Below, one piece after another: positions 1,215 to 63,287 of a DNA stretch of 64,000 nucleotides (its first letter is position 1; each line of letters opens with the position of its first letter). The position numbers and the translations under genes are program-made. The stretch is taken from positions 8,910,993 through 8,974,992 of the forward strand of contig OY540814.1 of assembly GCA_961205875.1 (NCBI GenBank), given 5' to 3'. This DNA is from Sialis fuliginosa (lineage: Eukaryota > Arthropoda > Insecta > Megaloptera > Sialidae). The notes beneath the pieces are model-generated. The model was not told where the DNA came from, searched no databases, and worked only from the letters and a program-made list of their open reading frames with translations.

Positions 1215-4200
1215 CTTCATGTAGCTGCTTAATTAATTTATTTCGGTCTGATTCTCTTTCTTTTTGAACACGTGCAAGTACATTATCGAATTTATTAACT
1301 TCTACAGCTAAATCCGTGAGTAACTACAACAAAAACATATACAGAAATAATAATCACAAAAACATTGTTCACATACTTTTTGTTTATCCTGTCTAATTGC
1401 GTTTTGCAGTTCAATTTCTTTACTTTGAAGCATTTCATTATATTTTTCAATTTCTATTAATTCTTGACGTCTTTGATCCTGTAAAATGAAGTTTTCATAA
1501 CAAAAGCATTCATACGTCTTTAATTATTTTCGTTACTTATATGTACATAATATTTACAACTGTACAATAATGGTATGAAATTTCATAAAACATGGTTCCT
1601 CAAGCGCTTTTCTGTGTTGAGTTAGTTTAATTTGTTAATTGATCAGGGCCGTAACTACCAGTAACTAGAGGCCCTGGGGCAGCAACTGATCGAGGGGCCC
1701 CTTATAAAATTTTTTTTGAACAATTTTCAAATTTTAATTATTGATATTTATGGTAAACAATTAAAATTACACCAGTAAATAAATTTTTTAATAAAAACAA
1801 ACAATAATTTCTCATCGAGCTGCATAAAAATCGATTATAGTGGAGTCATATTAGCGAAAATTTTTGTATCTTGTTGAAAAAACTACCATTTTTACGGTTT
1901 TTTTTGTACGTTTTTTTTAAATTGAATTTTCTTTGTTATGAATTTCCCTTATAAAACTAAATATTTAAAAAAAATTATAATTTTATTACATAACCTAAAA
2001 AAACAGTATGTACTTAGCATAGGCTGACCATTTTTTTGAGAAGGCAATGCGGGACTGTTTTTTTCGGGGGGGGGGGGGACAAATGAAAGACTTTTTTAAA
2101 ATTATTATTAATAAAGAATAACAAATGTTATATTGCAAATTCATAACAAGAACTTATATTTTATTTATAATTCACGATTGTCATTTTCGTTATTTTTAAA
2201 TTCACTACCATAGATGACGTATAATTTTTAAATAAAATTTGCAACAATTACTTTTTTTTAATCTGCTATGTTAATTTTATGTGAATTTTATTATATTACC
2301 TACATTTACTGAATTAATAGAGTTTTTTTAATTGTTAACATACCTATTTCAGTAGTAAAAATGTAAAAAAAGTATTCAAAATGCGGGACATTTTGCGGGA
2401 CATTAATGATGCGGGACAATGGGTCAAAATGCGGGACTGTCCCGCAAAATGCGGGACGAATAGTCACCCTAACTTAGCATAGACATAGAGAATGGGCAGC
2501 GCATTTTACATTAACACAATGGTGTAACATCTGTTCAAAAGGTGAGAGAGAGATGCAGTGTAGTTTGGAATATATCTATCTCTTTTTCTAAGAATCTGAT
2601 TGGTAGCTTACTATAGTTCAGGGTAGTATTTCTGTCCGATATATTTTTGTATATCTATCTTGTGATTTTTGTGCAATAATTTTTTAAAGATATTAAAATT
2701 GGTTAAAAAATTCGAAACTTATATTATTTAGAAATTAATAATAATTGATTCTTTTTTTAAATAAAAAAACGTTAATTATTTTAACCTCTTTATATAATAT
2801 TCGGGACCAAGAATGAAATAGCTACACTCCTGTTTAAAAAAAGGACAAGTATATTCCAAACCTGTTTCTATCTCTTTCTTTTGACACGGCTCTGTGTTCG
2901 TGTCAGATGCGTGGTCCATTCTCTATGTCTATGGTACTTAACACTTTTTTTACAATGACCAATAATATAGTATGTAAATCGATTTTAATTAAAAAAAAAA
3001 CCTTTTTCTTGTAGATTTTTTATGTACTATTTGATGGCGCTAACAATAAAAAATGTTTTAAAAATCTAATTCAAAATCTAGTTTTTGTTTTTGAAAAATT
3101 TTCTCCGTGTTGAATCAAAATGAATTTAACTCAAAACTTTTTTAATCCGATTTCGTAAAAAATTACCTTCCTTGTTAGGGGGCCCCCTAAGTTCGGGGGC
3201 ACCGCCCTGGTGGTAGTTACGGCCTTGTAATTGATTCAGGATTGTAATTTGTATGAATAAGTATGTGATGAATGTCAATGTAATAGCTCGAAGACCCTTG
3301 TTTAAGAACTTAAATGAACTTATATATTAAGAAATTGTTGATGATATACCAAGAGCAAATAAAAGAAAAAGTACAGATAAATGGAAACATCCAATATCGT
3401 GTTGATTTAAACCGAAGATTGCATATATGTATGCAATCTTCGATAATTTATAAATTAAAAAAGAAAACACATTCAAGTTTATTGATTAAAACACATATAC
3501 ACAGACACACGGTGAATTTTCTTTTCAGAGAAAAAAGCTAACATGCCTTTAATCTTTCAAGTTGTAAAACTTTTTCCTAAAAAAAGATTAAAAATGTATA
3601 TAATACAACAGCGATTTTTGTAATAAAACTATATAAAATACCTGTAATATTGAGGAGTCTAGAATTTGGTCTTCAAAAATTTTGTGTGTTGACGTACTGC
3701 AGGCAGGTGTATAAGTAATTCCACAATCTGTAAATTAAATTTTACTAATTGCATTTCATATCCTGAAGTAAAATGTAATGTTATAAAAGCTAATACTACA
3801 TGGGCTGAAAAGTCTTTAGCCTGACATACAGATGGTAACATAAACAAAAAATCCTTATGCTTCCCATAGAGAATACAATACTGTCGACACTTCATGTACT
3901 TTTGTTCAAGTTACAGCCTTCGAAGTGACGCTACTTTTATTATTTTTTTAATCATGAAAAAAAGTGAATTTCGTGTTTTGATTAAACATTGTTTTTTGAT
4001 GGGAAAAAATACCGCCCAAACAAAGGAATGGCTTGATAAGTGTTGATAAGTCTGCCCCAGCTAATTCAACCGTAAAATATTGGCTTGTTGAGTTTTGACG
4101 TGATCGTACGAGCACAAATGATACACTATGTTCAGAAAGGCCAAATGAGGCAGTTACTACAGAAAACAGAAAAATTAGTGAAATTGTGTTGTAAAGGAAC

Positions 4201-5954
4201 ATGTGATCATATTCTTCATGAATGTTTATATATGAAAAATCTTTGCGCGCGATGGGTATTAAAAATGCTGTTTCACCAAGACAATACACCACCTCACAAA
4301 ATATTCACGTTATGACCGATAAATTGAAAGAATTGCGCTATGAATTAGTTCCGCATCCACCGTATTGTTCTGACCTGGCCCCCAGCGACTACTAACTTTT
4401 TCTGAAATTGAAAATGTGGCTTTTTTTTCTAATGAAGAGGTCGAGTTAGAAACAAACACCTATTTTGAGGGACTTGACACAAAACACTATAAGACCAGTA
4501 TCAAAATGTTAGAGGACCATTGGAACAAGTGCATTACTCTAGATCAGCGGTTCTTAAACTTATGTAGTCTAGAGACCCTCTTTTGAACAATTATTTCTCA
4601 GGGACCTCCTCCTGCAGGTGTTATTTTAAGAAAATTTTAAAACTGCAAGACTTTATTTTTTGCTGCACACTGACAAGACTTGCCTCCCTGACAGAAAAAC
4701 AAAGGTCGTTAGATACTAATTAATCACTGATAAATAGAAATGTAAAAGTACTTTAATTTACGCCAAACATGTTTCACGGACCCCCGGGGGTTGCGCCCCT
4801 AGTTTAAGGACCGTTGCTCTAGATAGAAATTATGTCGAATAAGAAATTTTTCATTAAAAAAAATCGTTTTTTCATTGTTAGGCCAAAAACTTTTCAGCCC
4901 ATGTGTTAAATAACTGTGGTATAATTAATGTTGGTTAATGGTCTAACTATACGAGGGTACATAGAGCTAGTTTAACCTCTTATTTAATACATTGACTGCT
5001 GCGCTCATCTTATTATTTTTATGATTGATATACTTTTAATTCTACACACCAACCAAAAGATTCTGATAATCCTATTGAAAACCATTTTAAGTGAGCAATG
5101 CTCACATTCAAGCGTACAGAAATTTGAAAACAAATGTATATATAATAATAGGGTACTCATAGCAGTCAACATATTAAGTGAAAACATACAAACAATACAC
5201 ATTTATTTTGTTTTAATTTGTCTACATACCATTTGAAATAAATTGAATCACAGAAGATGCTCCCTCAGAACATATTTCTTTAGGTGGGTATATAAAATTT
5301 TCACTATCAAGTTGAAGGTTTTGTAAATTTATTAATTTATGCATTGACTTTGGTAAATTTTTTAATTGTGCATTTCCACCTAAGCATAATATCTCTAATT
5401 GTACCAAATCTCCAATAGTATCTGGTAAATAACTAAGTTTATTATTTGAAATATTGAGAATTTTTAAATTAGATAAACTAGTGATTGAATTGGGAAGCTT
5501 TTTGAGTAAATTATCTTTAATATTTAATTCCTGTAAACAAACAAATTAAAAATTAGTATAGATGGGTATATGTAAAGAATTGTAATGTACTCACCTTAAG
5601 ACTAGATAATTCGTCTATATCTTCTGGTAATCGACTAAATCTATTATTACGTAAATCAAGCATATATAAGTTTTTTAGGTCTGACAGTGATCCTCCACTA
5701 CTTAAACTTTCTAGTCGATTATCACCAAGCAAAAGACTTTGTTTTAAGAAAACTCGGCAAAGTGAATATATTCCTTGAGGTACAGATTTCAATGCACAGT
5801 CACTTAAATCAAAAATTGGTTCCGGTGTTTCTCTTGCCTATAATAACCGTTAATTACTAACTAAATATAAATTAAGTAGAAAGAAATTACTTACTAAATA
5901 TAATTTATGTTCTAAGCGAGCTTTATAATCAACTTTTTTGTTGCTTTTTGACAT
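1215..5954 (-). CDS. LRSAM1: LRSAM1-like E3 ubiquitin ligase, N-terminal part (six exons, 3' end outside window)
   Basis: Exons, read on the minus strand: 5954-5895, 5837-5595, 5530-5230, 3727-3642, 1478-1377, 1323-1215. All borders are GT-AG and all phases join, giving about 300 residues. Residues 1-20 (MSKSNKKVDYKARLEHKLYL) are a basic start resembling the head of LRSAM1. Residues 21-200 are LRRs of the LxxLxLxxNxLxxLP type, closing with YPPKEICSEGASSVIQF, very close to the end of the LRSAM1 LRR domain. Exons 5 and 6 encode a charged coiled coil (EIEKYNEMLQSKE; LARVQKERESDRNKL). In known LRSAM1 the remainder is more coiled coil, a SAM domain, a PTAP motif and a C-terminal RING that ubiquitinates TSG101; none of that is in the window. 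The ATG at 5954 is the first in frame. The last donor (G|GTTAGA) is weak. The two large introns carry transposons but the exons are intact. Identification rests on recalled family similarity, not a search. Confidence 0.86.
2020..2471. mobile_element. hAT-type MITE nested in the 1644-3227 element
   Basis: Ends TAGGCTGACCA and TAGTCACCCTA are inverse with two mismatches. ACTTAGCA flanks both sides exactly (2012-2019, 2472-2479). Subterminal copies of ATGCGGGAC occur at both ends and in opposite directions on the right. There is no coding capacity. Confidence 0.82.
2480..2931. mobile_element. MITE with TAGACATAGAGAATGG termini
   Basis: TAGACATAGAGAATGG at the left and CCATTCTCTATGTCTA at the right are perfect inverses about 450 bp apart. 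Terminal TA on each side is compatible with a mariner/Tc1-type TA duplication. It abuts the right target duplication of the 2020-2471 element. Confidence 0.65.
3799..4903 (+). pseudogene. Broken mariner transposon (transposase remnant) in an LRSAM1 intron
   Basis: Inverted ends CATGGGCTGAAAAGTC and ACTTTTCAGCCCATG lie at 3799 and 4903; the left flank is TA and the right TG (decayed). From 3955 the plus strand reads a mariner transposase N-terminus (EFRVLIKHCFLMGKN, then RTSTNDT and RPNEAVTTENRK), but with stop codons and a large internal deletion. The C-terminal catalytic part is recognisable (LFHQDNTPPHK, then LVPHPPYCSDLAPSDY, which carries the mariner D34D context). An 8-bp-TSD MITE has inserted near the end. 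It cannot make transposase. Confidence 0.9.
4545..4816. mobile_element. hAT-type MITE inserted in the mariner remnant
   Basis: Ends CAGCGGTTCTTAAACTT and AGTTTAAGGACCGTTG are inverse, and CTCTAGAT flanks both sides exactly (4537-4544, 4817-4824). The insertion splits the mariner C-terminal coding remnant, so it is younger than that mariner copy. Confidence 0.87.
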
Positions 5955-9354: not shown

Positions 9355-11960
9355 ATATTGTTTCGGTATTAACTATGAGAATTAACGAAGTGTTTTTTTT
9401 TCGAAGAAAATGTCTTAATTTATAATAAGTATATTAATGTTCGTAATTATTAATTATAAAAAAATTAAAGAAACTTGTTTCTTGTAAAATCTTTCAACGG
9501 GGTATCAAAATATTATGACGGTTCTATGACGTTTATTTATGATAAACGCATGTATAGAAAAAACTGTATTAAAACGGCGGGGTTCTATTAAAAAATATCT
9601 TGTACGGTCAGAACCAACAACTGTGTTTTAGTAAATTAAAGTACGATTGATCTAAATTCCAAAGTAAATCCAATATAACTTGATACCCAGTTTAAAGTGT
9701 TTGCATTTGTTTGCTAGTTTTAAAATATATTTATATAAAATATGTATGTGCGTATGAAAATTGTCGAGTCCTGCCCTGATCACCACGATGGTTTTATAAT
9801 AATGAAGGGATAATATAGTATATATAAACGCAAAGATAAACGTGAGATTAAATGTACTTAAAAGTTAGTTTTAAGATTTATGTGTGTTAGTAAAATTAAA
9901 ATGACCACATTTAAAATTAGACTGAAACCTTAGAATTTGTGTAATTCCTGTCGAATATAGAATTAATTATACTAACTTTTAATTAGAAAATTAATTATAC
10001 ATACGCACGCATTTATAAATTTAATTTTAGGTAAATAATGCGAAACCATATTAATATATTAATTCATATAACGATATTATTAATAATATAAAAGTTTTTC
10101 AAAAGTCTAGTATTTAGCACTTTTTAACGTTTTTTAAATAGGAGGGGGTATATTTAATTATTATTTTCCATTTTTAGAAAGGTCGCATTATGACTGCTAT
10201 ATTTATAGTAGACATATTTTTTTATTGTAAAATGTATTTGGTTAAGATCGTAGTCAATCTGTTTCTTCTTTTGGTCAAATATAAAATATTATATATATAT
10301 ACACATGATGGCAAATAACTGAAATTACAAAACATAAATAAAACCACTGAAATGCGAATAAAAATAAGAGGGTATGTTGAGCGATAGCAGACAGCTGAAA
10401 CATGACATTTGTTTATATCGGAGCTGCGAGTGCAATCTTTAGAGCCAAATGCACCAGAGTATCTCTAGCTAGACTCTTAGATAAATGATATGAAGCTTTC
10501 TTTGACGTAGACTGAGTACGTATGCACACTCAAGGAGATCCAGGGAATTTATTTTATTTTACTTGTATGTCTGCGGTACTATTCTGACACTATATTGTCT
10601 ACTCCTTGACTCGGTCCATTATTTATGGTTAGAGAATTTGTATGATATTAACCACAGCTATGCCATTGTTTTACACAGACACGAAATTTACAGGTATTCA
10701 CTGTTGTTTAATATGAATTGTGTTTGTTATGTTGTTTTATAATTATGTTAGTTCAACTAACGCATTGAGTGCAGATTACTCTTGACTTTGTAACTTATAT
10801 TACTGTGGATTACATAACTTTTGTAAGTAAGTACAAGTATATTATGTTCTTAATTTGTTGATGATTGTTCTTTTTGTAATATACCTATATGGTACATGAT
10901 TATTCATATACATGTAAAGTGTTATTATATAAGTAGCATCAACACAGTTTTGGTAAATTGTTTCACGTTTTAATTTAACCCCGGCTCATAGATATAACAG
11001 ATTTTTTATAAAAAAATAGTGGTGGATAGTGTTAGATATGTGTTCTTTTCAGTGACTCTTTATTTTATTTTATTTATTTTTTATTATTTATTTTACGCTG
11101 ACGTTTGTGCTGGTGATGTTTTTGAAAAAAAAATATATACGACTATACGTATTATTTATAGGTACTTAATTAATATATTTTACGTTTTAAATATTATTTT
11201 GTGGTTTTTTTCATTTTTGTTGACTTTTAAAATAATAAATAATACAATTAAACTTTCATTGCTTCATGTTTCGTACTTTTATTAGTTAATATTTTGATAA
11301 TCCTTAAAATTTCAAATTGCCTTTCAAAAATGGTATAAATATGATAAATGCTAACACTAATATAGGCGCTACCATGATAAAAGCAGTGAGAATTTATATT
11401 TTTGTCGCCTGAACGCTAACAGTTTTTTTGCCGTCCCAGAAAAATGATCCTGTTTTTTTTTTGCCACCTGTATAAAATCTGCATCATCTTTATAAATTTT
11501 TATAAATTACCTTTTTTATCGTTATTGGGAAATTCGCCACTGGTTAAATGTTATTTAAAAGCAGAATGTGCAGAAAAAAATCGTATATTAATTTAAAAAA
11601 TAATACCTATTTAATGGTATTATAACTGCATTTTGTAGTTAAATATAGATAATAACATATGTATAAATAATAATAACAAACTAATCCCACATCAAAATAT
11701 AAGCAGGTAGAAAAACATGCATGGATATTAAACAATGCTTTTATACCTTTGATTAATGAAATAGTGCAATATTAAAATATGTATTGTACACTACCTACTC
11801 GCAAAATATTAATAATATATACATTTGCGAACTATCCGCACTATATATTGATTTCCACTATTTATTGTCAAATTATTACCTATATTACAATATTTTCAAC
11901 ATACAGGAAAACAAGAAATATTTTTACACTTATACCAGGAAGTCTATAATAATAAATAAA
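9355..11960. other. AT-rich intergenic DNA with one less AT-rich island
   Basis: No gene is supported. An 88-codon frame at 11019-11285 is an artefact of T-rich sequence. The stretch 10375-10640 is more GC-balanced and non-repetitive and could be a regulatory region or an undetected non-coding exon, but no direct evidence is visible. Confidence 0.4.
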
Positions 11961-11962
11961 AT

Positions 11963-12903
11963 AAAACGGCCAAGTGCGTGCTGGGCACGCACATGATAGG
12001 TTTCCGTAGTCATTACGATTTATAAACAAGAGTAATTTCAAGGGACGCTCTGATAACGACATTTAAATGCAAATATATCGTGACTGAAGGGTTAAAATCA
12101 AAAGGTCATAAAATATTTTTTGTTACATTTAAGGAGACCTATCTAAAGATACCCCACTCAATTGAGTAAGTGAAAAAAAATTTGAGTACAATTTTCAGTC
12201 TATGGGAGGGAGTCCAAAATAATTTTGACAGTGTTCGTTATAATTTTCAGTGAAAGTACTAATTAAAAGCTACATTAGAAATTAGGGTGGGGGGGGACGC
12301 TCTAACAACGACATTTAAATGCAAATAGATCGTGACTGAAGGATTAAAATCAAAAGTTTATTTAACATTTTTCGTTGCATTTTGGGAGACCTATCTAATG
12401 ACACCCCACTCAATGCGTTAAGAAAACAAAAAAATGTGAGTTCACTTTTCAGTCTATGGGAGGGGGGTCCAAAATAATTTTGACAGTGTTCGTTATAATT
12501 TTCAGTGGAAGTACTTGAATTTGTTCAATTTTTTTAAATTGATAGTTTAGAAATTAAGGTGGGGGGGACGCTTTGATCACGAATTTGAACGCAAATATAT
12601 CGTGACTGAAGGGTTAAAATCAAAATGTCATATTATATTTTTTTATTGCATTTTAGGAGACTTATCTAAAGACTACCCACTTAATAGATTAAGTGAATTT
12701 TTTTTTTTGAAAATACTTTTCAGTCTATGAAAAGGGGGTCCAAAAAAATTTTTTTTTCAAAAATATTATCATTTCTGTTTTTGGGATATTAGTCTTCGTC
12801 CGTATACCAAATTTCATCTTAATCGGCTTAAAATTTTTGAGGACAGACGGACGGACATAGCGAAACTATAAGGTTTCCTAGTTTTCTATACGGAAACCTA
12901 AAA
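11963..12903 (+). repeat. Dispersed repeat family A, longest plus-strand copy
   Basis: It begins AAAACGGCCAAGTGCGTG and ends near TACGGAAACCTAAAA; an AGGTTTCCGTAGT stretch near the start is inverse to the end. Inside are three tandem ~250-270-bp subunits starting at about 12044, 12294 and 12563, each with ATTTAAATGCAAATA, CGTGACTGAAG and a TTTTCAGTCTATG block. No coding frame survives. Other copies are at 28983-30826, 34899-35391, 43492-44027 and 53825-54330. The start resembles a CGGCCAAGTGCG repeat common in insect genomes; its class is unresolved here. Confidence 0.75.
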
Positions 12904-12997
12904 ACATATAATAATAATTTTGTTTTAGAGAGAGTTGGTTGTATAATGCTATAATTTTTGTAGTATTTCAGTAGTATATTGTACTACCTACCCTATT

Positions 12998-28982: not shown

Positions 28983-30826
28983 GTGTCTTTAGATAGGTTC
29001 CCTAAAATGCAACAAAAATGTTAAATTACCTTTTGATTTGAACCCCCTCAAACACGATATATTTGCTTTTTAATGTGTTTATCTAAACTATCAATGAGTC
29101 AAAACACGTCAAGTGGACCCCCCTTTTACCACTTAATGATAGAAAACTTATTAAAATATAATTATCGAAAGTAGTCATACCTAAGAATCATCCCTCAAAA
29201 CAGTTTTTGAAAATTTTGAATTTAACAACAATTTTTTTAACAATAAAAATTTTCGGTACTTTTAATTAAAAAATTGATTGTGAAAAAGCTATTGAAGATA
29301 ACTTAACGAAATTTTCAGTGATTATAGTTAAATATCTATATTTTCACATAAAATCCTTTTGCAAATTTCATTTGCTTATTATCATATTTTTTATTAACTT
29401 TTAAATAAACAAATTGAAATTTTAATGACTTCTCAGTACGATAATCGATTTTTTTTTTAGTAATATGCATTATACATTTAAGTAGTTTATTTCGAAATAA
29501 AATTTCACTGCCCGGTATTAGTTTAAATAATATGAATTTTTATGTGACGCAGCGGCGAGCAGTACAAGTGCCGCGCGCTACTGAGCTTAGCCGTTAAGAC
29601 TGTAGATCGCTACAAATTACAGAATTATTGAATAAATGATTTTTACAATACAATTTTTTTTGTATTTATTTATATTTTTAACAATATTTGCACAAAAATC
29701 GATTATCGTACTGAGAAGTCATTAAAATTTCAATTTGTTTATTTAAAAGTTAATAAAAAATATGATAATAAACAAATGAAATTTGCAAAAGGATTTTATG
29801 TGAAAATATAGATATTTAACTATAATCACTGAAAATTTCGTTAAGTTATCTTCAATAGCTTTTTCACAATCAATTTTTTAATTAAAAGTACCGAAAATTT
29901 TTATTGTTAAAAAAATTGTTGTTAAATTCAAAATTTTCAAAAACTGTTTTGAGGGATGATTCTAAGGTATGACTACTTTCGATAATTATATTTTAATAAG
30001 TTTTCTATCATTAAGTGGTAAAAGGGGGGTCCACTTGACGTGTTTTGACTCAATGTAAAAAAATCTGATAAAAATCCTGTATGTAGTTTTTAGGTTTCCG
30101 TAGAAAACTAGGAAAACCTTATAGTTTCGCCATGTCCGTCCGTCCTGAAAAATTTAAGCCGATTAAGATGAAATTTAGTATAAGGAGATAACACAAAAAC
30201 AGAAATGATAAGATTTTTGAAAAAAACATTTTTTTTTGGACCCCCTTTATATTGACTGAAAAGTGAACTCACATTTTTTTACTTTACTAAATGCAACAAA
30301 AAATGTTAAATTATCTTTTGATTTTAACCCTTCAGTCACGATATAAAAAAAATTCAGAATGTAGCTTTTGATTAGTACTTCCACTGAAAATTATAGCGAA
30401 CACTGTCAAAGTTATTTTGGACTCCCTCTCATAGACTGAAAATTGTACTCACATTTTTTATCACTTACCCCATTGAGTGGGGTATCTTTAGATAGGTATC
30501 CTAAAATGCAACAAAAAATGTTATATGACTTTTTGATTTTAACCCTTCAGTCACGATATATATGCATTTAAATGTCGTTATCAGAGCGTCCGTTGAAATA
30601 ATTATTGTTTATAAATCGTAATGACTACAGAAACCTATCATGTGCGTGCCCAATAGGCACTTGGCCGTTTTATTAATTAGTACTTTCAATGAAAATAATA
30701 ACGAACACTGTAGCAAAAATAGTTTATGAAAATTTTTGAAATAACTCTTTTTTATAATTCGTAGTGACTACGGAACCCTATTAATCCTATCATGTGCGTG
30801 CCCAACACCCACTTGGCCGTTTTATT
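28983..30826 (-). repeat. Composite of inverted family A copies
   Basis: On the minus strand the family A head (cggccaagtg) appears near 30826 and again near 30675, and the tail (ggtttccgtagaaaactagg) at 30090-30125. A truncated second copy continues at 28983-29096 and 30056-30088 and is interrupted by the hairpin element 29097-30050. At least two copies have been joined. Confidence 0.65.
29097..30050. mobile_element. Long-arm hairpin (foldback) element with 5-bp TSD
   Basis: The arms 29095-29453 and 29694-30052 (359 bp each) read as inverse complements with no mismatch noticed. They enclose a 240-bp unique centre (29454-29693). Taking AGTCAAAACAC / GTGTTTTGACT as ends, CAATG flanks both sides (29092-29096, 30051-30055). 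The host sequence, a family A copy, resumes after the insertion, as shown by uninterrupted copies such as 35220-35270. There is no transposase. Confidence 0.8.
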
Positions 30827-31589
30827 AATTTATAACATTCTCAATTACCTCTGAATGTAACTAAAAATAAAAATATAAATAGTTTTAGAAATGTTTTGAA
30901 AATTCCATATTCCTGTACAGTATGTACAATACATTCCTTTAATTAGAATAGTTATTATTATTTTAGTCCAATTCTTGCAAAATAATATTTACTTTAGTTT
31001 TCAGACAGAAATCTTTAAAACTCAAACGGTTTTAATTCGTTATTTTGACACTATATGTAGTTAATTTATTGAAAATATAATTATCTAGTGAATGATTGGG
31101 GTTGATTTTGTGGCTTCAACAACAATTACAATATTAATATTGATCAACTAAATTAGTCCGCTTGAATTTTTAATACCAGTATTTTTTATGTACTTTAATT
31201 GAAACTCTAACTATTATTCGATTATTCGAAACGATTTTAATAGGTATATATTTAACTATGTATGTAAATATTTTTTGAAACAACATTTATTTGAATTGAT
31301 TTGCCCAGTACAGGGAGACAATTTGCAAATGAATAGTTACAAATAAAAAGATATAGTAAAGAATCTACCTAATAAGTGGGTGAAACATTTCTATATAATC
31401 TGCAATTGAAAAGATAAAATTGTATCATTCAAAATACTTACGAAGCTATTATAATTTTTATACCTAATAAATGTAGGACTCTACTACTTTACTATTTATT
31501 AAAAAAAAAACATATAAAATAATGTTATATTAATTTAAGATAATAATCTATTTATAAAGCATGCATATATTATTATAAATTATTATTAA

Positions 31590-33663: not shown

Positions 33664-36600
33664 AGGTAAAGTACCCAGTTATGGAACGATTTTTCCACAC
33701 CTTTTTTTTGCGCTCATATAAAAAATCTATAAGTTATTAAATGGAACATTGTAATACATTATTTGATGGGCCTATGTTTCCTCTATAACGTCATACTTAC
33801 AAAACTCAAATAAATATAATATTTTTCATGATATAAAAAAAAAAGTGAATGAACTAATGTCCACTATTATGAAACAAGATTTTTGCATTGGCACCTATGT
33901 TCCATAATTCATTCACCTAATATGGAACAGTAGTTTTTCTTCTATAAGTTATTTTTCCATTGATTTTTATAATTTTATTGATTTTAAATAATTAAATCAA
34001 CCGCTTTCATTGATTTTTTTTATAAAATTACACTTGAATTCAATCTTCTATTCTACTATTGAAGACGGTTTAGTATTTAAGGGTTGATTCTTACCCTTAT
34101 AATTTATTTTAAATTTTTAATATACAGTACCCTTGTATACAGGATTTACTACCCAGTTTGTAAATTTCACAGTTTTATCTTTACCTGTGTCCTTCGAATT
34201 AATTGTAATAAATTGGGGTTGGAGTGATTAACGTACAAAGTTGTTATTTCTTGGACTTTGAGACAACACCACATTAATGATTTTTCTGAAATTTCATATT
34301 AATATGACAATTTTTAACAAAACTGTTCCATTCAAAAAGTCTCCCACTAATTGTGACAAGCAGTGTATCAGTAATATTAATTGGATTTAAAATATTAGAT
34401 TTTTATTTTTATTGGAAATGCACCTAAAATAATATTAATGATGAAAGGAAATGAGAAAAATAATTTGAAAACATCATTAACATACATTAATCTTAAGCAG
34501 AACTTTATTAAATTTTTTAAATGTTATAAATCATAATAAAATATAAATATCAATAATATAAAGTTATAAAATTTAAATATACAAATTTAATACACCCAAT
34601 TCTGTTTTCTCACGATACGTTCAGCCTATTAATTTAAAATTTAACAAGAAAAAGAACTTCATTGTATGAAAATAATAAATTGTATAAATTTTACAGTGAT
34701 TTAGAATAAATGGATCATGTAAAATCAAATCAGTACGCATAAAAAAAAGTTTTTTATTGTTATCGACCGTGCTTCTTCAAAATCGTGTAAAAAAAATTTG
34801 TTTGAAAACAGAATTGGCTGTACCTATATGAAAAATATAAAATATTAAAAATAAGGTAACAAAGTTTATGAAAAATTAAGTTTCTTGCTTAATTTTTAGG
34901 GTTTCGTAGAAAACTACGAAACCTTATAGTTTCGCTCTGTCAATCTGTCTGTCTATATAAATTTTATACCGATTAAAATGAAATTTGGTATACGGACGAA
35001 GACTGATAACCCAAAAACAGAAATGATAAGATTATTGAAAAAAAAAATTATTTGGACCCCCTTCTCATAGACTGAAAAGTATATTTAAAAAAAATTTCAC
35101 TTAATCCGTTAGGTGGGGTGTCTTTAGATAGGTCTCCTAAAATGCAATAAAGTATGTTATATTTTAATTTTAACCCTCCAGTCATGAATTATTTTCTTTT
35201 AAATGTCGTTGTCAGAGCTAACTAAACTATCAATTCAAAAAATCTGAAAAAAATCCAGAATGTAGCTTTTAATTATAACAAACACTGTAGCAAAAATAGT
35301 TTATGAAAAATTTTGAAATAACTTTTTTACAAATCATAATGACTACGGAACCCATCATGTGCGTACCGAACATGCACTTGGCCGTTTTATTTTTTTAATT
35401 GTTTCATTTGTTCTTCAAATTCTTTATTTTTTTCAGCTAATCATTCGTTTCTCTTCTTGCAATTGTTACGATGGTAATTTCATTATGTTGTAAATCAATT
35501 ATATCTAGAATTATAAATAATATAGATAAATATTCAACATTAATTAATTAATTAATTCAAACAATCAGTACCTACCATCGAATACAATTAAGGGATCATT
35601 AAGTGCCTTTGTAACACCTTCTTCATAATAATATATTGATTCTTTGGTAACCACTGTGATAATTTGATCAAATGCGTTTTCATTATTTTGCATCGTAAAG
35701 TTTCTGTATCTTTCATCGTACATACCTCGGAGAGGTTAAGATGGTAATTTTAATCTATCTAGTCCAGTTTATACTAGAACATTTGTTATTTCAATCAATT
35801 CTTTCGCCTTTGAAGAATTCAAAACATTTCCTTTCTTAATAATGTGACAGCTGACACTGAATCGTTTTAGATGTACTATTTTTCCTTCTAATTTTATTTT
35901 TTTATTTATTTATTTTGATTAATACTCTTTATTTTTCTAGTTTTCATTGCTAAAACAAATATAAGTATAGGATTAAATTATAAATATTATTGACAGGTAA
36001 TATTTTGAGGTTAGGTTTTTACTTTATTTCACTCACCTATTTCTTATATTCTTAAATAAAATGCATGAATATTGATTGATCACACCACTTTGATGATAAA
36101 ATAATAATTCAAATACAGAAATAATACGATAATGACACAAATTAGTTGCAAACAATACGTTCCAACAGATGATTGAACAAGTCCCACTCCAGGCACAAGC
36201 ATTTCGGTTGTTTCATATATTGGTTAATAATGACATTCAACGTTCCTATAAAGAAACATGTATTTATCAATAATGACTTTACTTAAATCTATGAAATAAT
36301 TATATCATATCATTTATTAAAGACTTACCTACAATTTGAACTATTATTTATATCGTAAAATACTTGAAATATTAAGAATTACATCAAAACAGTGAACTGT
36401 ACAAATCACTACATTTGTGATAAACATGTCAGTGAATACCAACTTTTATGTAGGCTATAATAAAATAATTTTTTTCGACTATTTATATTTAAATAATACT
36501 TTGATTTTTAGTACTATAGTTAAATTAAAAGGTTTAATGACACTAGGTAAATTTTTTTAGTACGCAAAACGAAGTATGAATATTATTAAAATTGATTAAT

Positions 36601-38820: not shown

Positions 38821-38833
38821 TGACTGAGTCTAG

Positions 38834-41800
38834 ACCTGTGTGAAGTTAGCCCCCCTTTTGTTGAAATTCTAATTTTTGAAAGTTGTGCCAAATTGTGCTA
38901 TACTTGTGCTACATTGTGCCAAAATATTTTCCCCCTAAAATAAAAACAACACTGGAAAAACCCAAAAAACGATTTTTTTTAGTAGCCCCCCTTTTTTTGA
39001 AATTCAAATTTTTGAAAGTTGTGTAAAATTGTGCTAGTTGTTCTTAACATTGTGCCAAAACATCAATACTCTAATATAATTTTCCAGCCCCCCAGAACAA
39101 AAATACATTTTTCACCAGCCCCCCTTTTGCTGAATTTCAAAATTTTGAAAGTTGTGCTGAATTGTGCTATACTTGTGCTACATTGTGCTAAAATATTTCC
39201 ATACTAAAATAAAAACTGCTCTAATAAAACCAAAAAAACGTTTTTTTTTTAGTGTGAAGTTAGCCCCCCTTTTGTTGAATTTCAAAATTTTGAAAGTTGT
39301 GCTAAATTGTGCTAAACTTGTGCTACATTGTGCCAATATATTTCCACCCTAAAATAAAAACTGCTCTAATAAAACCAAAAAAACGTTTTTTTTTAGTGTG
39401 AAGTTAGCCCCCCTTTTGTTGAATTTCAAAATTTTGAAAGTTGTGCTGAATTGTGCTATATTTGTGCTACATTGTGCTAAAATATTTCCACTCTAAAATA
39501 AAAACTGCTCTAATAAAACCAAAAAAACGCTGTTTTTTTTAGTGTGAAGTTAGCCCCCCTTTTGTTGAATTTCAAAATTTTGAAAGTTGTGCTAAATTGT
39601 GCTAAACTTGTGCTACATTGTGCCAAAATATTTCCCCCCTAAAATAAAAACTGCTCTAATAAAACTAATAAAACGTTTGGTTATTTTTGGTGCGAAGTTA
39701 GCCCCCGTTTTGTTGAATTTAAAAATTTTGAAAGTTGTGCTAAATTGTATTATACTTGTGCTACATTGTGCCAAAATATTTCCCCCCTAAAATAAAAAAT
39801 TCCCTAATAAAACTTTAAAAAACGTTTTTTTTGGTGGGAAGTTAGCTTCCTTTTTGTTGAATTTCAAAATTTTGAAATATGTGCTAAATTGTGCTATACT
39901 TGTGCTACATTGTGTCAAAATAATTACCCCCTAAATTAAAAACTGCTCTAATAAAACTAAAAAAACGGTGTTTTTTTGGTGTGAAGCTAGCCCCCCTTTT
40001 GTTGAATTTCAAAATTTTGAAAAGTGTGCTGAATTGTGCTAAGCTTGTGCTACATTGTGCCAAAATATTTCCACCCTCAAATACAAATTGCAATAATAAA
40101 ACTAAAAAAACGTTTTTTTTTATTGTTTTTTTGTGAAGTTAGCCCCCATTATGTTTAATTTAAGAATTTTGAAAGTTGTGCTCAATTGTGCTATTTGTTG
40201 CTTACGTTGTTCCAAAATATTTCACCCATAAAATAAAATAAAAATTATTTACTTCAATATCTGATAAAGATTATATTGATATAAACATTAAAAGAATAAA
40301 TAAAGAAAAAGAAAATTTATAGACCATAGTTATTTATTATACATGTATATACACATTACAGGTAACGGTAAACATATAATTAATAATAAAAGGATATTGT
40401 ATAGGCTCTCTTGCAACGCAAGATATTTACGCCACTAATAAACCAATTTAAAATTTTTTTGAAAAGTTAAATAGTGATTGTAGCTTTTAAATTCAAACAA
40501 TTAAATTTCGTGTAGTGGCGTCAGACTGGCGCCGAATCGACATCACCAACAATATCTATAAACACAGTTTGGATACGAATTTTTATTTTATTTTATGGGT
40601 GAAATATTTTGGAACAACGTAAGCAACAACTAGCACAATTGAGCACAACTTTCAAAATTCTTAAATTAAACATAATGGGGGCTAACTTCACAAAAAAACA
40701 ATAAAAAAAAACGTTTTTTTAGTTTTATTATTACAATTTTTATTTGAGGGTGGAAATATTTTGGCACAATGTAGCACAAGCTTAGCACAATTCAGCACAC
40801 TTTTCAAAATTTTGAAATTCAACAAAAGGGGGGCTAACTTCACACCAAAAAAACACCGTTTTTTAGTTTTATTAGAGCAGTTTTTAATTTAGGGGGGAAT
40901 TATTTTGGCACAATGTAGCACAAGTATAGCACAATTTAGCACATATTTCAAAATTTTGAAATTCAACAAAACGGGGGCTAACTTCGCACCAAAAAAAAAC
41001 CAACCGTTTTTTTAGTTTTATTAGAGCAGTTTTTATTTTAGGGTGGAAATATTTTGGCACAATGTAGCACAAGTATAATACAATTTAGCACAACTTTCAA
41101 AATTTTGAAATTCAATAAAAGGGAGGCTAACTTCACACTAAAAAAAAAACGTTTTTTTGGTTTTATTAGAGCAGTTTTTATTTTAGTGTGGAAATATTTT
41201 AGCACAATGTAGCACAAGTATAGCACAATTCAGCACAACTTTCAAAATTTTGAAATTCAACAAAAGGGGGGCTAGCTTCACACTAAAAAAAAACGTTTTT
41301 TTGGTTTTATTAGAGCAGTTTTTATTTTAGAGTGGAAATATTTTAGCACAATGTAGCACAAGTATAGCACAATTCAGCACAACTTTCAAAATTTTGAAAT
41401 TCAACAAAAGGGGGGCTAACTTCACACTAAAAAAAAACGTTTTTTTGGTTTTATTAGAGCAGTTTTTATTTTAGTGTGGAAATATTTTAGCACAATGTAG
41501 CACAAGTATAGCACAATTCAGCACAACTTTCAAAATTTTGAAATTCAACAAAAGGGGGGCTAACTTCACACTAAAAAAAAACGTTTTTTTGGTTTTATTA
41601 GAGCAGTTTTTATTTTAGAGTGGAAATATTTTAGCACAATGTAGCACAAGTATAGCACAATTCAGCACAACTTTCAAAATTTTGAAATTCAACAAAAGGG
41701 GGGCTAACTTCACACTAAAAAAAAAACGTTTTTTTGGTTTTATTAGAGCAGTTTTTATTTTAGAGTGGAAATATTTTAGCACAATGTAGCACAAGTATAG

Positions 41801-42133
41801 CACAATTCAGCACAACTTTCAAAATTTTGAAATTCAACAAAAGGGGGGCCGGTGAAAAATGTTTTTTTGTTTTGGGGGGCTGGAAAATTATATTAGAGTA
41901 TTGATGTTTTGGCACAATGTTAGGAACAACTAGCACAATTTTGCACAACTTTCAAAAATTTGAATTTCAAAAAAAGGGGGGCTACTAAAAAAAATCGTTT
42001 TTTGGGTTTTTCCAGTGTTGTTTTTATTTTAGGGGGGAAATATTTTGGCACAATGTAGCACAAGTATAGCACAATTTGGCACAACTTTCAAAAATTAGAA
42101 TTTCAACAAAAGGGGGGCTAACTTCACACAGGT
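38834..42133. mobile_element. 3.3-kb Foldback-type element with tandem-repeat inverted arms and 9-bp TSD
   Basis: Perfect ends ACCTGTGTGAAGTTAG and CTAACTTCACACAGGT are flanked by identical TGAGTCTAG (38825-38833, 42134-42142). The left arm is 38834-40246, the right arm 40579-42133, and the 332-bp centre is unique. Each arm is a tandem array of ~145-bp units (GTGAAGTTAGCCCCCC, GTTGAATTTCAAAATTTTGAAAGTTGTGCT, then TTGTGCTACATTGTGCCAAAAT, split here only for reading), about ten on the left and eleven on the right. The outermost units are distinct from the homogenised inner ones and match closely between arms. Drosophila FB elements and some Mutator-like elements share long repetitive inverted ends and 9-bp duplications. 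No transposase is encoded; the ~62-codon frames in the arms are repeat artefacts. Confidence 0.92.
40247..40578. other. Unique loop of the Foldback-type element
   Basis: This is 332 bp of AT-rich sequence between the two arms, with a GC-richer end (around 40500-40560, GTGGCGTCAGACTGGCGCC). No frame of note. It would form the loop if the arms paired. Confidence 0.7.
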
Positions 42134-42263
42134 TGAGTCTAGTGTAAACAAATTAAACGAATGTTTAAAATATCTTACCTCTATAATAAAAAAATTATTA
42201 CTAGGTTTGTCGTAGGTATGTAAATATATTTATGTCATTTTTAAAATCTTACAAAATAATTAA

Positions 42264-43491: not shown

Positions 43492-44027
43492 ATTTTCCAT
43501 AGACTGAAAAGTATATTAAAATTGTTTTTCCACTTAATCCATTAAGTGGTAGATGACCATTTAACTTTAATCCTTCAGTTATGATATATTTGCGTACAAA
43601 GTCGTTATCAGAGCGCCCCCCTCCCCTATTTTCTAAACTATCAATATAAAAAATCTGAAAAAATTCGAGACTGTAGCATTAGTACTTTCAATGAAAATTA
43701 TAACAAACACTGTTAACATTTTTTTGGACCCTGCTCCCATAGACTGAAAAGTATACTCACTTTTTTTTCCACTTACCCCATTGAGTTATGTTATATGACC
43801 TTTTGATTTTAATCCTCCAGTCACAATATATTTGTTTTTAAATGTCGTTATCAGAGCGTCCCCTCCTCTAATTTCTTAACTATGGATTAAAAAAATCTAA
43901 AAAAAATCCAGTTTAATTAGTACTTTCAACGAAAATTATAACGAATACTGTAGCAAGAATAGTCTATGAAATTTTTTGAAATAACTCTTTTTTATAAATC
44001 GTAATGACTACGGAACCCTATCATGGT
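43492..44027 (-). repeat. Dispersed repeat family A, truncated inverted copy
   Basis: Two or more family A subunits (TTTTCAGTCTATGG, CGATATATTTGCGT-like and ACTGAAGGATTAAA blocks) are present on the minus strand, with the head end lost after the GGGTTCCGTAGTCATTACG motif. Confidence 0.6.
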
Positions 44028-47719: not shown

Positions 47720-48060
47720 CGGGTACTATAAATATATTATAGATATTTATCTCAAAACCATCACATATATCCAAAAAATGTTTCAATCAACAAATGTTTG
47801 GTTGTGAGGGGGTAATCGAACTGTAATATTTATATGTTATTTTAGCGTGGTCTTAAAGGATATTTGAAGGTCAACATCATTTTCTAAATAAGAACCTATA
47901 GTTTTTATTTAGTAATCTTATTCTACTTGAAAAACCACGAATCTTTCATTAAAAACTTTTTTTTGAACAACCTAAGCCATCCAAGATATCTAACAAAATA
48001 ATTCGAGATTTTGGACTTTCAAGAATTTTTTACTCAGAAACTATTATTTAAAAATTAATT
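47720..48060 (+). repeat. Half copy of the 48234-49011 foldback MITE
   Basis: It matches the left half of the neighbouring element (AATGTTTGGTTGTGAGGGGG, then GATATTTGAAGGTCAACATC) with scattered differences, but lacks a clear terminal end and the right half. Confidence 0.7.
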
Positions 48061-48233
48061 AATAGAATATATAAATTGATCTTATTGTAAATAATTATTT
48101 ACTTAAAAACTATTGTATTTATTAGATAATATTAATTTTCTTTAAATATTATTTCATACTTTTCTGTGCTTTATTTTTGAAGTCGGTTCAACTTTTTTTT
48201 AATGTTAATTTTATATATTACATATTGTAGATA

Positions 48234-49011
48234 TACAGGGTGGGGCATTTAAACTGTTACAGATTATTATCTCAGAACCATTGCATATTTGAAAAAAATG
48301 TTTCAACCAAAAAATGTTTGGTTGTGAGGGGGTAATCGAGTAGTAATATTTAATTGTTATTTTAACGTGCCCTTCAAGGATATTTGAAGGTCAACATCAT
48401 TTTTTAAATAGGAACATATAGTTTTTATTTAGTAATCAAATTCGACATAAAAAAACACAAATCTTTCATTTTAATTTTTTTTTTTGTAGTTTTCCAACGT
48501 ATCTAACAAAATAATTCGAGATTTTTAACATTCAAGAATTTTTTACACAGAAACCATAAACTTTAGAAAAAAAGTACAAGATACAAAATAATTTTATTTT
48601 GGTCTAATAAAGCTTGGTGAATTATTTTAAAAAATTAAAAAACTATCCTAGTTATTTTATTTTAACAAAAACAAAAAAAATACGAAATGTTAAAAAAAAA
48701 TCTAGAATAATTCTCCAAGTTTCATTAGACTAAAACAAATATTTTTTGTATCTTGTACTTTTTCTCTAAAGTTTTAATGAAAGATTCGTATTTTTTCACG
48801 TAGAATAAGATTACTAAATAAAAACTATAGGTTCGTATTTAAAAAAATGATGTTGGCTTTCACATATCCTTGAAGGCCACGATTAAATAACAGTTAAATA
48901 TTACTATACGATTACCCCCTCACAACCAAACATTTTTTGGTTGAAATATTTTTTTCAAATATGCGATAGGTCTGAGATAATAATCTGTAACACTAAATGC
49001 CCCACCTTGTA
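48234..49011. mobile_element. Fully palindromic MITE (TA sites)
   Basis: The ends TACAGGGTGGGGCATTTA and TAAATGCCCCACCTTGTA are inverse with few differences and are flanked by TA (48232-48233, 49012-49013). Inverted symmetry continues almost to the centre near 48620, for example GTTTGGTTGTGAGGGGGTAA against TTACCCCCTCACAACCAAAC. It has no coding capacity and would fold into one long hairpin. Confidence 0.82.
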
Positions 49012-49224
49012 TATCTTGTTGCTATGTATTTAATAACATATTATAATTTATAATGTATGATATTTGTTTTATATTATGTTTATTACTTATTAAATAAAAT
49101 AAAACAAATATTTATAGGTATTATTAGATTACTGTTTATATTACATTTAGAAGCAGGCAGGTATTTTCAGTTTTTATTGAATAATCTTTGGTATTACCGC
49201 AAAAATAATAAAAAGTCATATGAT

Positions 49225-53550: not shown

Positions 53551-53824
53551 CGCTTGATTCATATGTGTGTGTATGTGTGTTTGAGAACAAAGGAACAGTT
53601 CTATTTTAAGAAGGTTTTATACTGCTTCATCAGTCATGTACATTTAACGCTTTTAAATACGGCTGTACACCGATACGAGATTTTTCTTGGTCTTGGTCTC
53701 GAAACGAAATCGAGAAATAAACTAGAGTGCTTTAAAATAAGACGAGACAGTCTGAAATTTTTATGATGCGATTAAGATGATAATCACTTAATTTATAAAT
53801 CTCGTTGTTTCTCTATATTATAAT

Positions 53825-54330
53825 AAAACGGCCAAGTGCGTGTTGGGCACGCACATAATAGGTTTCCGTAGTCATTACGATTTATAAACAAGAGTGATTT
53901 TAATTTTTTTTATTAACTATTCTAGCTACAGTGTTCGTTATAATTTTCATTGAAAGTACTAACTAAAAGCTACATTCTGGATTTTTTTTAGGTTTTTTGC
54001 ATCGATAGTTTAGAAAGTAGAAGGGGGAGGGGACGCTCTGATAACGACATTTAAATGCAAATATATCGTGACTGAAGGGTTAAAATCGAAAGGTCATATA
54101 ACATTTTTTGTTGCATTTTAGGAGACCTATCTATAGATACCCCACTCAATGAGGTAAGTGAAAAAAAAATTGAGTACAATTTTCAGTCTATGAGAGGGGG
54201 TTCAAAATAATTTTGACAGTCTTCGTTATAATTTTCAGTGGAAGAACTAATTAAAAGCTATATTCTGAATTTTTTTCAGATTTTTAGGTTTCCGTAGAAA
54301 ACTAGGAAACCTTATAGTTTCACCATGTTA
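53825..54330 (+). repeat. Dispersed repeat family A, plus-strand copy with an inverted end
   Basis: It starts AAAACGGCCAAGTGCGTG like copy 1 but finishes with AGGTTTCCGTAGAAAACTAG, which is the inverse of copy 1's end. The terminal part therefore faces the other way, by rearrangement or by joining of two copies. Confidence 0.65.
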
Positions 54331-60770: not shown

Positions 60771-60832
60771 TTATCAAATTTAAAATTTTCTTAGTTTAAT
60801 AAAAAAAAAAAAAAAATTGTGCATTTTTCAAT

Positions 60833-62396
60833 AGTAAATCGATCAAATTGTGGGGATACAAGAGGATTTCTGCAAATTTTCTTTCGGTCATTAGTTTTTG
60901 AGATAAGCGGTAATATACAAAAATAAGCTTCTTTTTATGTAGGTACAGTTAATTAATTGTATAAACAATCAATTTTTATACTGAACCGATTTTAATGCTG
61001 TTTTCACCAATAGATAAATAATTATTGGATTGGTTTAAAATAAAAAAAACTCAACAATAAGATGTTAGTGTTACCATTTGCTTAAGAATTGAAATTTTTT
61101 ACTTTTTTATGATGGGAATCGATTATATAAGTCTTTGAGAACACATACAAACAGTTGTACAAAAATAAAAACTTGCATTGTTAATTAAAGACAAACATGA
61201 TTCCATTATTAACAATTTAATAAAACAAAAACAGTTGAAGATATCAGGTCCTAATTTTTCAGTGAATTTTCTGTATTACAGAATGTTTTATTTCCAGAGG
61301 TATCAACTTAAAAAACGTTAGTTATTACAGCTTAAAAAAAGTGTGTTCAACCAATTTAATCAGCGTAGCGGATAAACAAATGAATTTTTTGATTATTTTC
61401 AAAATGCAAGTTGTAGAGAATTTTGTAGCGAATAACTTTTATTTGAAACTTTTTTTTGTATAATACTTATTTAGACCGTTATTTAGCAAAAATCAGGAAA
61501 TCTAAAGAATTTTGCAATTGAATAATGGATAACTCTTGTCGCGGAGCAAACTTAGGGTATTATTCTACACCACTTTTGTAACATATCCTGTAAGTATTAA
61601 AACTGTACGCAAAAAGTAAATCGATCAAATTGTGGGGATACAAGAGGATTTCTGCAAATTTTCTTTCGGTCATTAGTTTTTGAGATAAGCGGTAATATAC
61701 AAAAATAAGCTTCTTTTTATGTAGGTACAGTTAATTAATTGTATAAACAATCAATTTTTATACTGAACCGATTTTAATGCTGTTTTCACCAATAGATAAA
61801 TAATTATTGGATTGGTTTAAAATAAAAAAAACTCAACAATAAGATGTTAGTGTTACCATTTGCTTAAGAATTGAAATTTTTTACTTTTTTATGATGGGAA
61901 TCGATTATATAAGTCTTTGAGAACACATACAAACAGTTGTACAAAAATAAAAACTTGCATTGTTAATTAAAGACAAACATGATTCCATTATTAACAATTT
62001 AATAAAACAAAAACAGTTGAAGATATCAGGTCCTAATTTTTCAGTGAATTTTCTGTATTACAGAATGTTTTATTTCCAGAGGTATCAACTTAAAAAACGT
62101 TAGTTATTACAGCTTAAAAAAAGTGTGTTCAACCAATTTAATCAGCGTAGCGGATAAACAAATGAATTTTTTGATTATTTTCAAAATGCAAGTTGTAGAG
62201 AATTTTGTAGCGAATAACTTTTATTTGAAACTTTTTTTTGTATAATACTTATTTAGACCGTTATTTAGCAAAAATCAGGAAATCTAAAGAATTTTGCAAT
62301 TGAATAATGGATAACTCTTGTCGCGGAGCAAACTTAGGGTATTATTCTACACCACTTTTGTAACATATCCTGTAAGTATTAAAACTGTACGCAAAA
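60833..62396 (+). repeat. Tandem duplication of a 782-bp unit
   Basis: Copy 1 (60833-61614) and copy 2 (61615-62396) share every stretch compared, with a constant offset of 782 bp; no difference was noticed by eye. The unit has no long frame. It contains CTGAACCGATTTTAATGC and TTTTCACCAATAGATAAATA, resembling family E modules at 55725-55765 (inverted). It is either a very recent duplication or an assembly artefact. Confidence 0.88.
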
Positions 62397-63287
62397 ATAA
62401 TCTCTTTTAGCCTCCACAGCCTGGACTACCCGGTATTCGTTAAATCTTTTTGTTTCAACACTTTGTTTTCGTTCCATTTTTGTAAAAACACTATTTTTCA
62501 ACTAAAGAGAGTTTGTAATGGCCAACACTTGCACAACAAGTGTTGCGAAGTTCATTTGAAAAATTTTGACAAAAGGTTTTCGTTATCAACACAACAGGCG
62601 TTGAAAAACTTTTGCGTATTATAAACGGGATCTGTGAGCGTTAAAAATGGGAATATTTATATATTTATTTACGTATCGGGGTCAGGACCATGGCAAAAAC
62701 GCGTAACACAATGGATAGCGCTATAAACGGGAGCTTTATATCGAAGTTTCATTTCATTTTAAAAACAATTGGAGATTTTCTTCCTTGAAGAAAATTGATC
62801 CCAAATAATCAATAAAACTCTTCTATGCACTGACGTTTTTGAATTACTGTGTCACCCAGATATTATGGCGAAAATAATTCGAATTGATTCAAGGAAGGTC
62901 ATAATGAATATTTTTTATACTTGTAAATTTGAACTAATTCTGGCATCTTATTGTAATATTTTATAAACTACATCAATACTCTATAAGTAAATCAAATGAA
63001 GCCAAGAAGTGCTGATTAGCTGTGTAATATAACGTATTTATAATTAAAAAAAAATATATATACTAAAAAAAATCTCCATATAAATTTTTCAACCGTTTTG
63101 CAATCTCGTATGGGTTCAATTTTCAGGATACGAAGTAGCCTATGCTCTTCTTCGGGATGCAAGCTATCTCACTGCCAAATTTCATTACTATCCGTAAAGC
63201 GGCTTAGCCGTAAACAGGTAACAAATAGACAGACTGAGAGATACACTTTCGCATTTATAATATGTCTCGAATCCTATGTAAGATAAG

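Follow-up and report, generated by a model that had tools for sequence, protein, structure and literature searches.

The window, a 64-kb stretch of DNA from Sialis fuliginosa, contains a 3300-bp foldback element at positions 38834-42133. The element is flanked on both sides by exact copies of the 9-bp sequence TGAGTCTAG, at 38825-38833 and 42134-42142, and these are its only two occurrences in the window. The first and last 96 bp of the element are perfect inverses of each other, and the outer inverted pair spans 712 nt with 97% complementarity. Each arm is an array of tandem units, ten on the left (38834-40246) and eleven on the right (40578-42133), and between the arms lies a 331-bp core (40247-40577). 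The units measure 133-152 bp, mostly about 145 bp, except that the innermost is 121 bp long. Units are numbered inwards from each end, L1-L10 and R1-R11, and three-digit labels denote genomic copies and loci. The features are as follows.

38825-38833 (unstranded): left target-site duplication TGAGTCTAG, an exact match to 42134-42142
38834-42133 (unstranded): complete non-autonomous foldback element, 3300 bp, with 96-bp inverse ends and a 9-bp duplication, belonging to a multi-copy family
38834-40246 (plus strand): left arm, 10 tandem units of 121-152 bp; in 14 of 15 subfamily copies the arm length corresponds to 10 units
38834-38968 (plus strand): terminal unit L1, outermost sequence ACCTGTGTGAAG; bases 5-32 recur exactly in internal units
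39247-39684 (plus strand): left middle units L4-L6, 92-97% alike
40247-40577 (unstranded): core, 331 bp; longest stop-to-stop frame 44 aa; at least 15 places with at least core bases 1-259 among the best 40 of 61 candidates scored
40578-42133 (minus strand): right arm, 11 tandem units of 121-152 bp, from the unit analysis
41144-41720 (minus strand): right middle block R4-R7, 99-100% alike, with alternating CACTC/CACAC variants; four of the five right-arm changes in unit number fall here
41999-42133 (minus strand): terminal unit R1, 99.3% identical to L1
42134-42142 (unstranded): right target-site duplication TGAGTCTAG, an exact match to 38825-38833

When 2,000,000 random pairs of 9-mers were drawn from the window, 105 matched, so a duplication at ends fixed beforehand would arise by chance with a probability of about 5e-5. 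No match between the element and the rest of the window was obtained by blastn at E 1e-3. Stop-to-stop frames reach 77 aa in the element and 44 aa in the core. The 77-aa frame, the longest in the array, returned no homologue in a protein search, and its single Pfam match (OST48_N, E 0.035) falls well short of the cut-off. Neither scans of viral contigs with three sequence patterns nor a scan of prokaryote genome contigs with one gave a match. Together these data confirm several features that an earlier note had proposed from the sequence of this locus, namely perfectly inverse outer ends with an exact duplication, parallel arrays of unequal length, and a Foldback-type architecture in which long inverted tandem-repeat arms surround a small core.

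The window holds other repeats. A second element with long inverted repeats, 956 bp in length, occupies 29096-30051; it has 87-bp perfect inverse ends (3 differences in 359), carries AAT on both sides and lies within one member of a dispersed tandem-repeat family. Further members in the window match its joined flanks across the junction. This family, with units of about 250 bp, is found at 11952-12905, 28983-30833, 34890-35397, 43497-44025 and 53819-54328; these copies are spread over about 42 kb and occur in both orientations. A tandem duplication of about 790 bp with 99.7% identity lies at 60830-62400, and direct and inverted repeats of about 220-305 bp cluster at 47737-49016, possibly as another rearranged inverted-repeat element. 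The frame at 4076-4315 resembles a mariner-like transposase by its motif, without support from Pfam. In protein comparisons, a signal-recognition-receptor exon had its best named matches in arthropods, at 45-51% identity, ahead of an echinoderm and a turtle, and an LRR protein matched two insects at 25-26%.

We searched the genome (392 Mb, 20 contigs) with the first 21 bases of the terminus, allowing up to two mismatches. This returned 144 matches, 68 and 76 on the two strands, and a reversed-pattern control returned 0. The best 40 of 123 candidate copies were scored and 21 stretches were taken, of which 20 frame a copy; stretch L029 frames none and was left out. The 9-bp duplication is exact in 19 of these 20 copies, copy L020 agreeing at 8 of 9 bases. 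With the window copy included, exact duplications number 20 of 21, and all 20 sites differ, with no strong consensus; the clearest bias is an A at position 2 (14 of 20). For 4 of the 21 sets of joined flanks, the sequences compared contained a related site that runs uninterrupted across the junction, with identities of 94% (copy L013), 87% (L017), 85% (L014) and 81% (L010, a less clean case with differences at the junction). The fetched stretches contained no uninterrupted site related to the window copy's own joined flanks.

None of the 21 copies has a frame above 96 aa, and two longer relatives have inner-part frames of 118 aa (L074) and 92 aa (L075). Copies L016 (6472 bp; G000:C7:8161292-8168563) and L013 (4819 bp; G000:C10:17249095-17254713) were considered as coding copies and rejected, as their size comes instead from nested, nearly palindromic core inserts. 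These inserts, of 3167 bp (98% palindromic) in L016 and 1514 bp (92%) in L013, are apparently other foldback-like elements. The longer relative L075 (G000:C11:20156200-20158300) has a GC-rich core insert with tandem repeats. The proposal of a non-autonomous multi-copy family whose members share these ends and carry 9-bp duplications is borne out by the number of terminus matches, the short frames and the duplications themselves.

The subfamily to which the window copy belongs was defined by its core. At least 15 places retain at least core bases 1-259, and further places in the genome share only core bases 199-331. Across the 12 copies with an uninterrupted 327-bp core, 9 cores are identical and the other 3, that of the window copy included, each carry a single private difference; this comparison excluded L013 and L016 because of their nested inserts and L025 because its length differs slightly. 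Cores that are identical or one base off in 12 copies show that the burst is recent, and the subfamily, judged by these cores, spread very recently, with copies L012, L016 and L025 looking older by their arms. The complete ends and duplication of the window copy, together with the near-identical cores, uphold the view that it is an intact, recent insertion.

A literature search by concept, not by sequence, found no description of the window family. As far as the available portions of the published accounts describe them, the closest kind comprises Tetris, Tm1 and Muta, with Tetris nearest in build. Tetris of Drosophila virilis is described as non-autonomous, without conserved ORFs, and suggested to belong to the Mutator superfamily; in its arms, tandem units of about 220 bp separate a flanking domain from an inner one, and its duplications are 8-10 bp (PMC4079207). 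In an architectural comparison, the window family shares with Tetris its non-autonomy, tandem-unit arms and duplication size. It differs in its units of about 145 bp and in having at least 15 copies of one subfamily, compared with three structurally complete Tetris copies in the accessible text of that paper. Phantom/Muta MULEs have duplications of 8-9 bp, contain short tandem repeats within their long inverted repeats, and are accompanied by many non-autonomous derivatives (PMC5225508, PMC6446971); Muta1 is called a type 2 foldback element (PMC5225508), and features of Rehavkus and Phantom are given in PMC6446971. In these excerpts the named Phantom/Muta members code for transposase and have 9-15 bp arm repeats, in contrast to the protein-less window family with its units of about 145 bp. 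Tm1, a Mutator/Foldback family of Meloidogyne, has 9-bp duplications and arms with variable numbers of tandem repeats, and its non-autonomous members occur beside a Phantom-like coding member (PMC3169594). Its repeat units of 13-15 bp and asymmetric outer motifs, as given in the text available, are unlike those of the window family.

Two further comparisons concern arm repeats. In Galileo, of the P superfamily, the arms are long and include internal tandem repeats, measuring about 210 bp in one subfamily, whose number is unequal between the two arms (PMC3573991, PMC3688188), and these repeats carry extra transposase-binding sites (PMC3688188). Galileo belongs to another superfamily, and in the portions available its duplications are 7 bp, unlike the 9 bp of the window family. 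In plant MULEs, inverted repeats are tandemly duplicated at the ends, for which replication slippage has been proposed (PMC3310237); that account gives about one extra inverted repeat per end, compared with about ten units here. We regard the window family as a new family of the known foldback kind, set apart from the named families by their descriptions, not by sequence.

The earlier note had also suggested a relation to Drosophila FB or Mutator-like elements and a search for an autonomous MULE or FB partner with matching ends. The genome was searched for one transposase domain, PF10551 (MULE), and 10 loci carry it. The search revealed no MULE gene between ends matching ACCTGTGTGAAGTTAGCCCCC among the terminus matches listed, the 10 MULE-domain loci, of about 3.2 kb each, being without family units; a MULE partner did not emerge at these loci. 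A 52-bp, 79% match (E 1.7e-4) between one of them, L030, and part of the core was taken as chance. Two MULE loci have frames of 482 and 479 residues and are 94.8% alike over 2888 bp. The 482-residue frame combines FLYWCH and MULE domains, a pair given for Phantom transposases in the available text of PMC3169594.

This frame is enclosed by an 8952-bp foldback element at C7:18227490-18236441 (L072, L070, L073). Both of its arms contain 15-bp arrays and arrays of 107-bp units (14.4 and 11.4 copies), its ends are identical as inverses over their first 20 bases, and a boundary scan near the arm ends found a 9-bp duplication, TATTTTATT. An element that has both a MULE frame and foldback arms is therefore present in this genome. 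Its array arms and 9-bp duplication resemble those of Phantom/Muta in the descriptions available. Its ends and units differ from those of the window family, so it need not be what moves the family. Given that this FLYWCH-MULE foldback element, itself flanked by a 9-bp duplication, resides in the same genome, a Mutator/Phantom-type (FLYWCH-MULE) transposase is the likely mover of the window family. The Mutator-like relation is thus indirectly supported by this element; a transposase with matching ends did not turn up at the 10 MULE-domain loci. The 9-bp duplications also fall within the range of 8-11 bp given for MULEs in the accessible part of PMC6446971.

Taken alone, 9-bp duplications are compatible with other superfamilies. 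Merlin-like transposases generate duplications of about 9 bp. It is conceivable, but in our judgement unlikely, that the mover belongs to such a superfamily (Merlin-like, for example) and that the foldback arms are convergent, as in Galileo. This would accord with the origin of foldback arms in different superfamilies, as the available parts of PMC3169594, PMC4079207 and PMC3573991 indicate, and with the lack of a MULE gene between matching ends at the 10 MULE-domain loci. However, the exact duplications in 20 of 21 copies fit MULEs and not the 7 bp of Galileo, and the same genome contains the array-armed foldback element that has both a FLYWCH-MULE frame and a 9-bp duplication of its own. We consider it highly probable that the window copy is a young non-autonomous foldback DNA transposon mobilised by a transposase encoded elsewhere, most likely of Mutator/Phantom type. 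Such an enzyme, most likely a FLYWCH-MULE protein, would recognise the ends and generate the 9-bp target duplication on insertion.

The arms of the window copy were compared unit by unit. Paired in order from both ends, the outer units show identities of 99.3% (L1-R1), 97.7% (L2-R2) and 96.6% (L3-R3), and the inner units of 90.3% (L7-R8), 93.8% (L8-R9), 98.0% (L9-R10) and 99.2% (L10-R11), an uneven spread (chi-square 25.5, 6 d.f.). Within R4-R7, where units are 99-100% alike, the CACTC and CACAC variants alternate, and this alternation is a dimer duplication. Two diagnostic variants occur in swapped order in the left and right arms, which requires at least one unequal exchange or conversion. 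The close match of the outermost units and the homogenisation of inner units, both proposed before, were confirmed by these values.

The earlier note had attributed this pattern to arm-to-arm copying or unequal exchange. We oriented 15 subfamily copies on the core and compared their arms; copies with other cores (L019, L022, L023, L024, L027, L028) were not used. Over the outer 413 bp, mean divergence is 1.95% between the arms within a copy (15 pairs) and 1.98% when a left arm is compared with the right arm of another copy (210 pairs), against 0.72% between left arms (105) and 0.42% between right arms (105). Over the inner 560 bp, divergence is 4.40% within copies and 4.40% between left and right arms of different copies, with 1.17% between left arms and 1.34% between right arms. 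At all 8 outer diagnostic columns, 11 of the 15 copies have a pure left-type and a pure right-type arm, the exceptions being L010 (at one column), L025, L012 and L016. The separate identities of the arms across copies indicate that most differences between them predate the burst and were inherited, not erased after insertion.

These comparisons bear on whether continuing gene conversion after insertion keeps the two arms of each copy alike. Some exchange between arms is suggested by short left-type patches in the right arms of copies L010 and L011, by the mosaic arms of L012 and L016, and by the swapped order of the two diagnostic variants in the window copy. The L010 and L011 patches are the strongest indication of conversion between arms among recent copies, and such patches are few. 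In L010, the innermost-but-one right unit is best matched by a left unit. No clean arm flips were seen when copies were oriented by their cores. Continuing conversion nevertheless predicts arms more alike within a copy than between copies, whereas the two divergences are equal and 11 of the 15 copies are pure at every outer diagnostic column. We find it quite improbable as a general account; for the recent burst, the arm sequences have largely refuted it already. As the main process, arm-to-arm copying after insertion finds no support; what resembles exchange between arms is confined to short patches and to the mosaic arms of two copies.

Changes in unit number support the other half of that proposal, unequal exchange. 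Left arms consist of 10 units in 14 of 15 copies and of 11 in L016; that of L012 was divided into nine because the script fused two outer units. Among right arms, those of 10 copies have 11 units; L009 has 13, L016 and L026 have 10, L025 has 9 and L012 has 7. Unit labels place the right-arm changes of L009, L016, L025 and L026 in block R4-R7, and L012 lost more. Unit number therefore changes mainly in the near-identical block of the right arm, although the counts, one altered left arm and five altered right arms, are too small to establish that the arms differ in this respect. Such instability of identical neighbouring units is as slippage or unequal exchange predicts.

That the second arm is an assembly artefact, produced by an inversion or a hairpin read error, has nothing beyond the near-palindromic shape in its favour and is scarcely credible, given that the sequences beyond the duplications show no inverted relation (compared as inverted copies, they agree at 21 of 60 positions) and that the arms differ in the same way in sequence and unit number at many loci, where copies with their own, different 9-bp duplications support the element being real.

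The composition of the units suggests what the arms may do. Terminus bases 5-32 (28 bp) recur exactly within internal units of both arms, where the outermost 4 bp are absent. This stretch is exact in L4-L6, R4-R6 and R10 and has one to four differences in most other units; in L2/R2 and L3/R3, only 19-20 of the 28 terminal bases are matched. With these pairs lacking the 28-bp terminal word and several other units carrying it imperfectly, the units cannot all be copies of the end. A typical unit consists, in order, of the 28-bp segment, the 16-bp palindrome TTTCAAAATTTTGAAA, and four TTGTGC words spaced at 10, 11 and 10 bp; another palindrome, AAAAAAACGTTTTTTT, is often present as well. Counted on both strands, TTGTGC occurs 70 times in the element compared with 14 times in the remaining 60.7 kb of the window, and the element has 24 perfect palindromes of at least 14 bp, compared with 0.56 per kb elsewhere in the window. 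The recurring terminal segment, the palindromes and the TTGTGC words make the unit look like a repeated transposon end. By analogy with the arm repeats of Galileo, the TTGTGC words may be putative transposase-binding sites. Three single units folded as DNA no better than shuffles, and no structured unit is claimed.

Under the preferred reading of a foldback transposon moved by an enzyme encoded elsewhere, the arms probably grew from an ancestral single inverted repeat by tandem duplication, and probably act as clusters of putative transposase-binding sites. We tentatively extend this to a more specific model, which we regard as possible rather than established: most units of about 145 bp would be near-complete duplicates of the end with four helically phased putative binding words, so that an arm would amount to roughly ten docking modules; the arms would still evolve as separate alleles following a very recent burst, with array length changing mainly where units are already almost identical.

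The many near-identical copies of this family show how foldback ends are inherited and change. With at least 15 such copies, and clean 9-bp duplications in nearly all those framed, gain and loss of units, conversion and transposition can be separated copy by copy. The FLYWCH-MULE foldback element in the same genome makes the role of the arm repeats testable with proteins from the same host. If the docking-module model is true, the family would be a natural experiment in the growth and decay of foldback arms.
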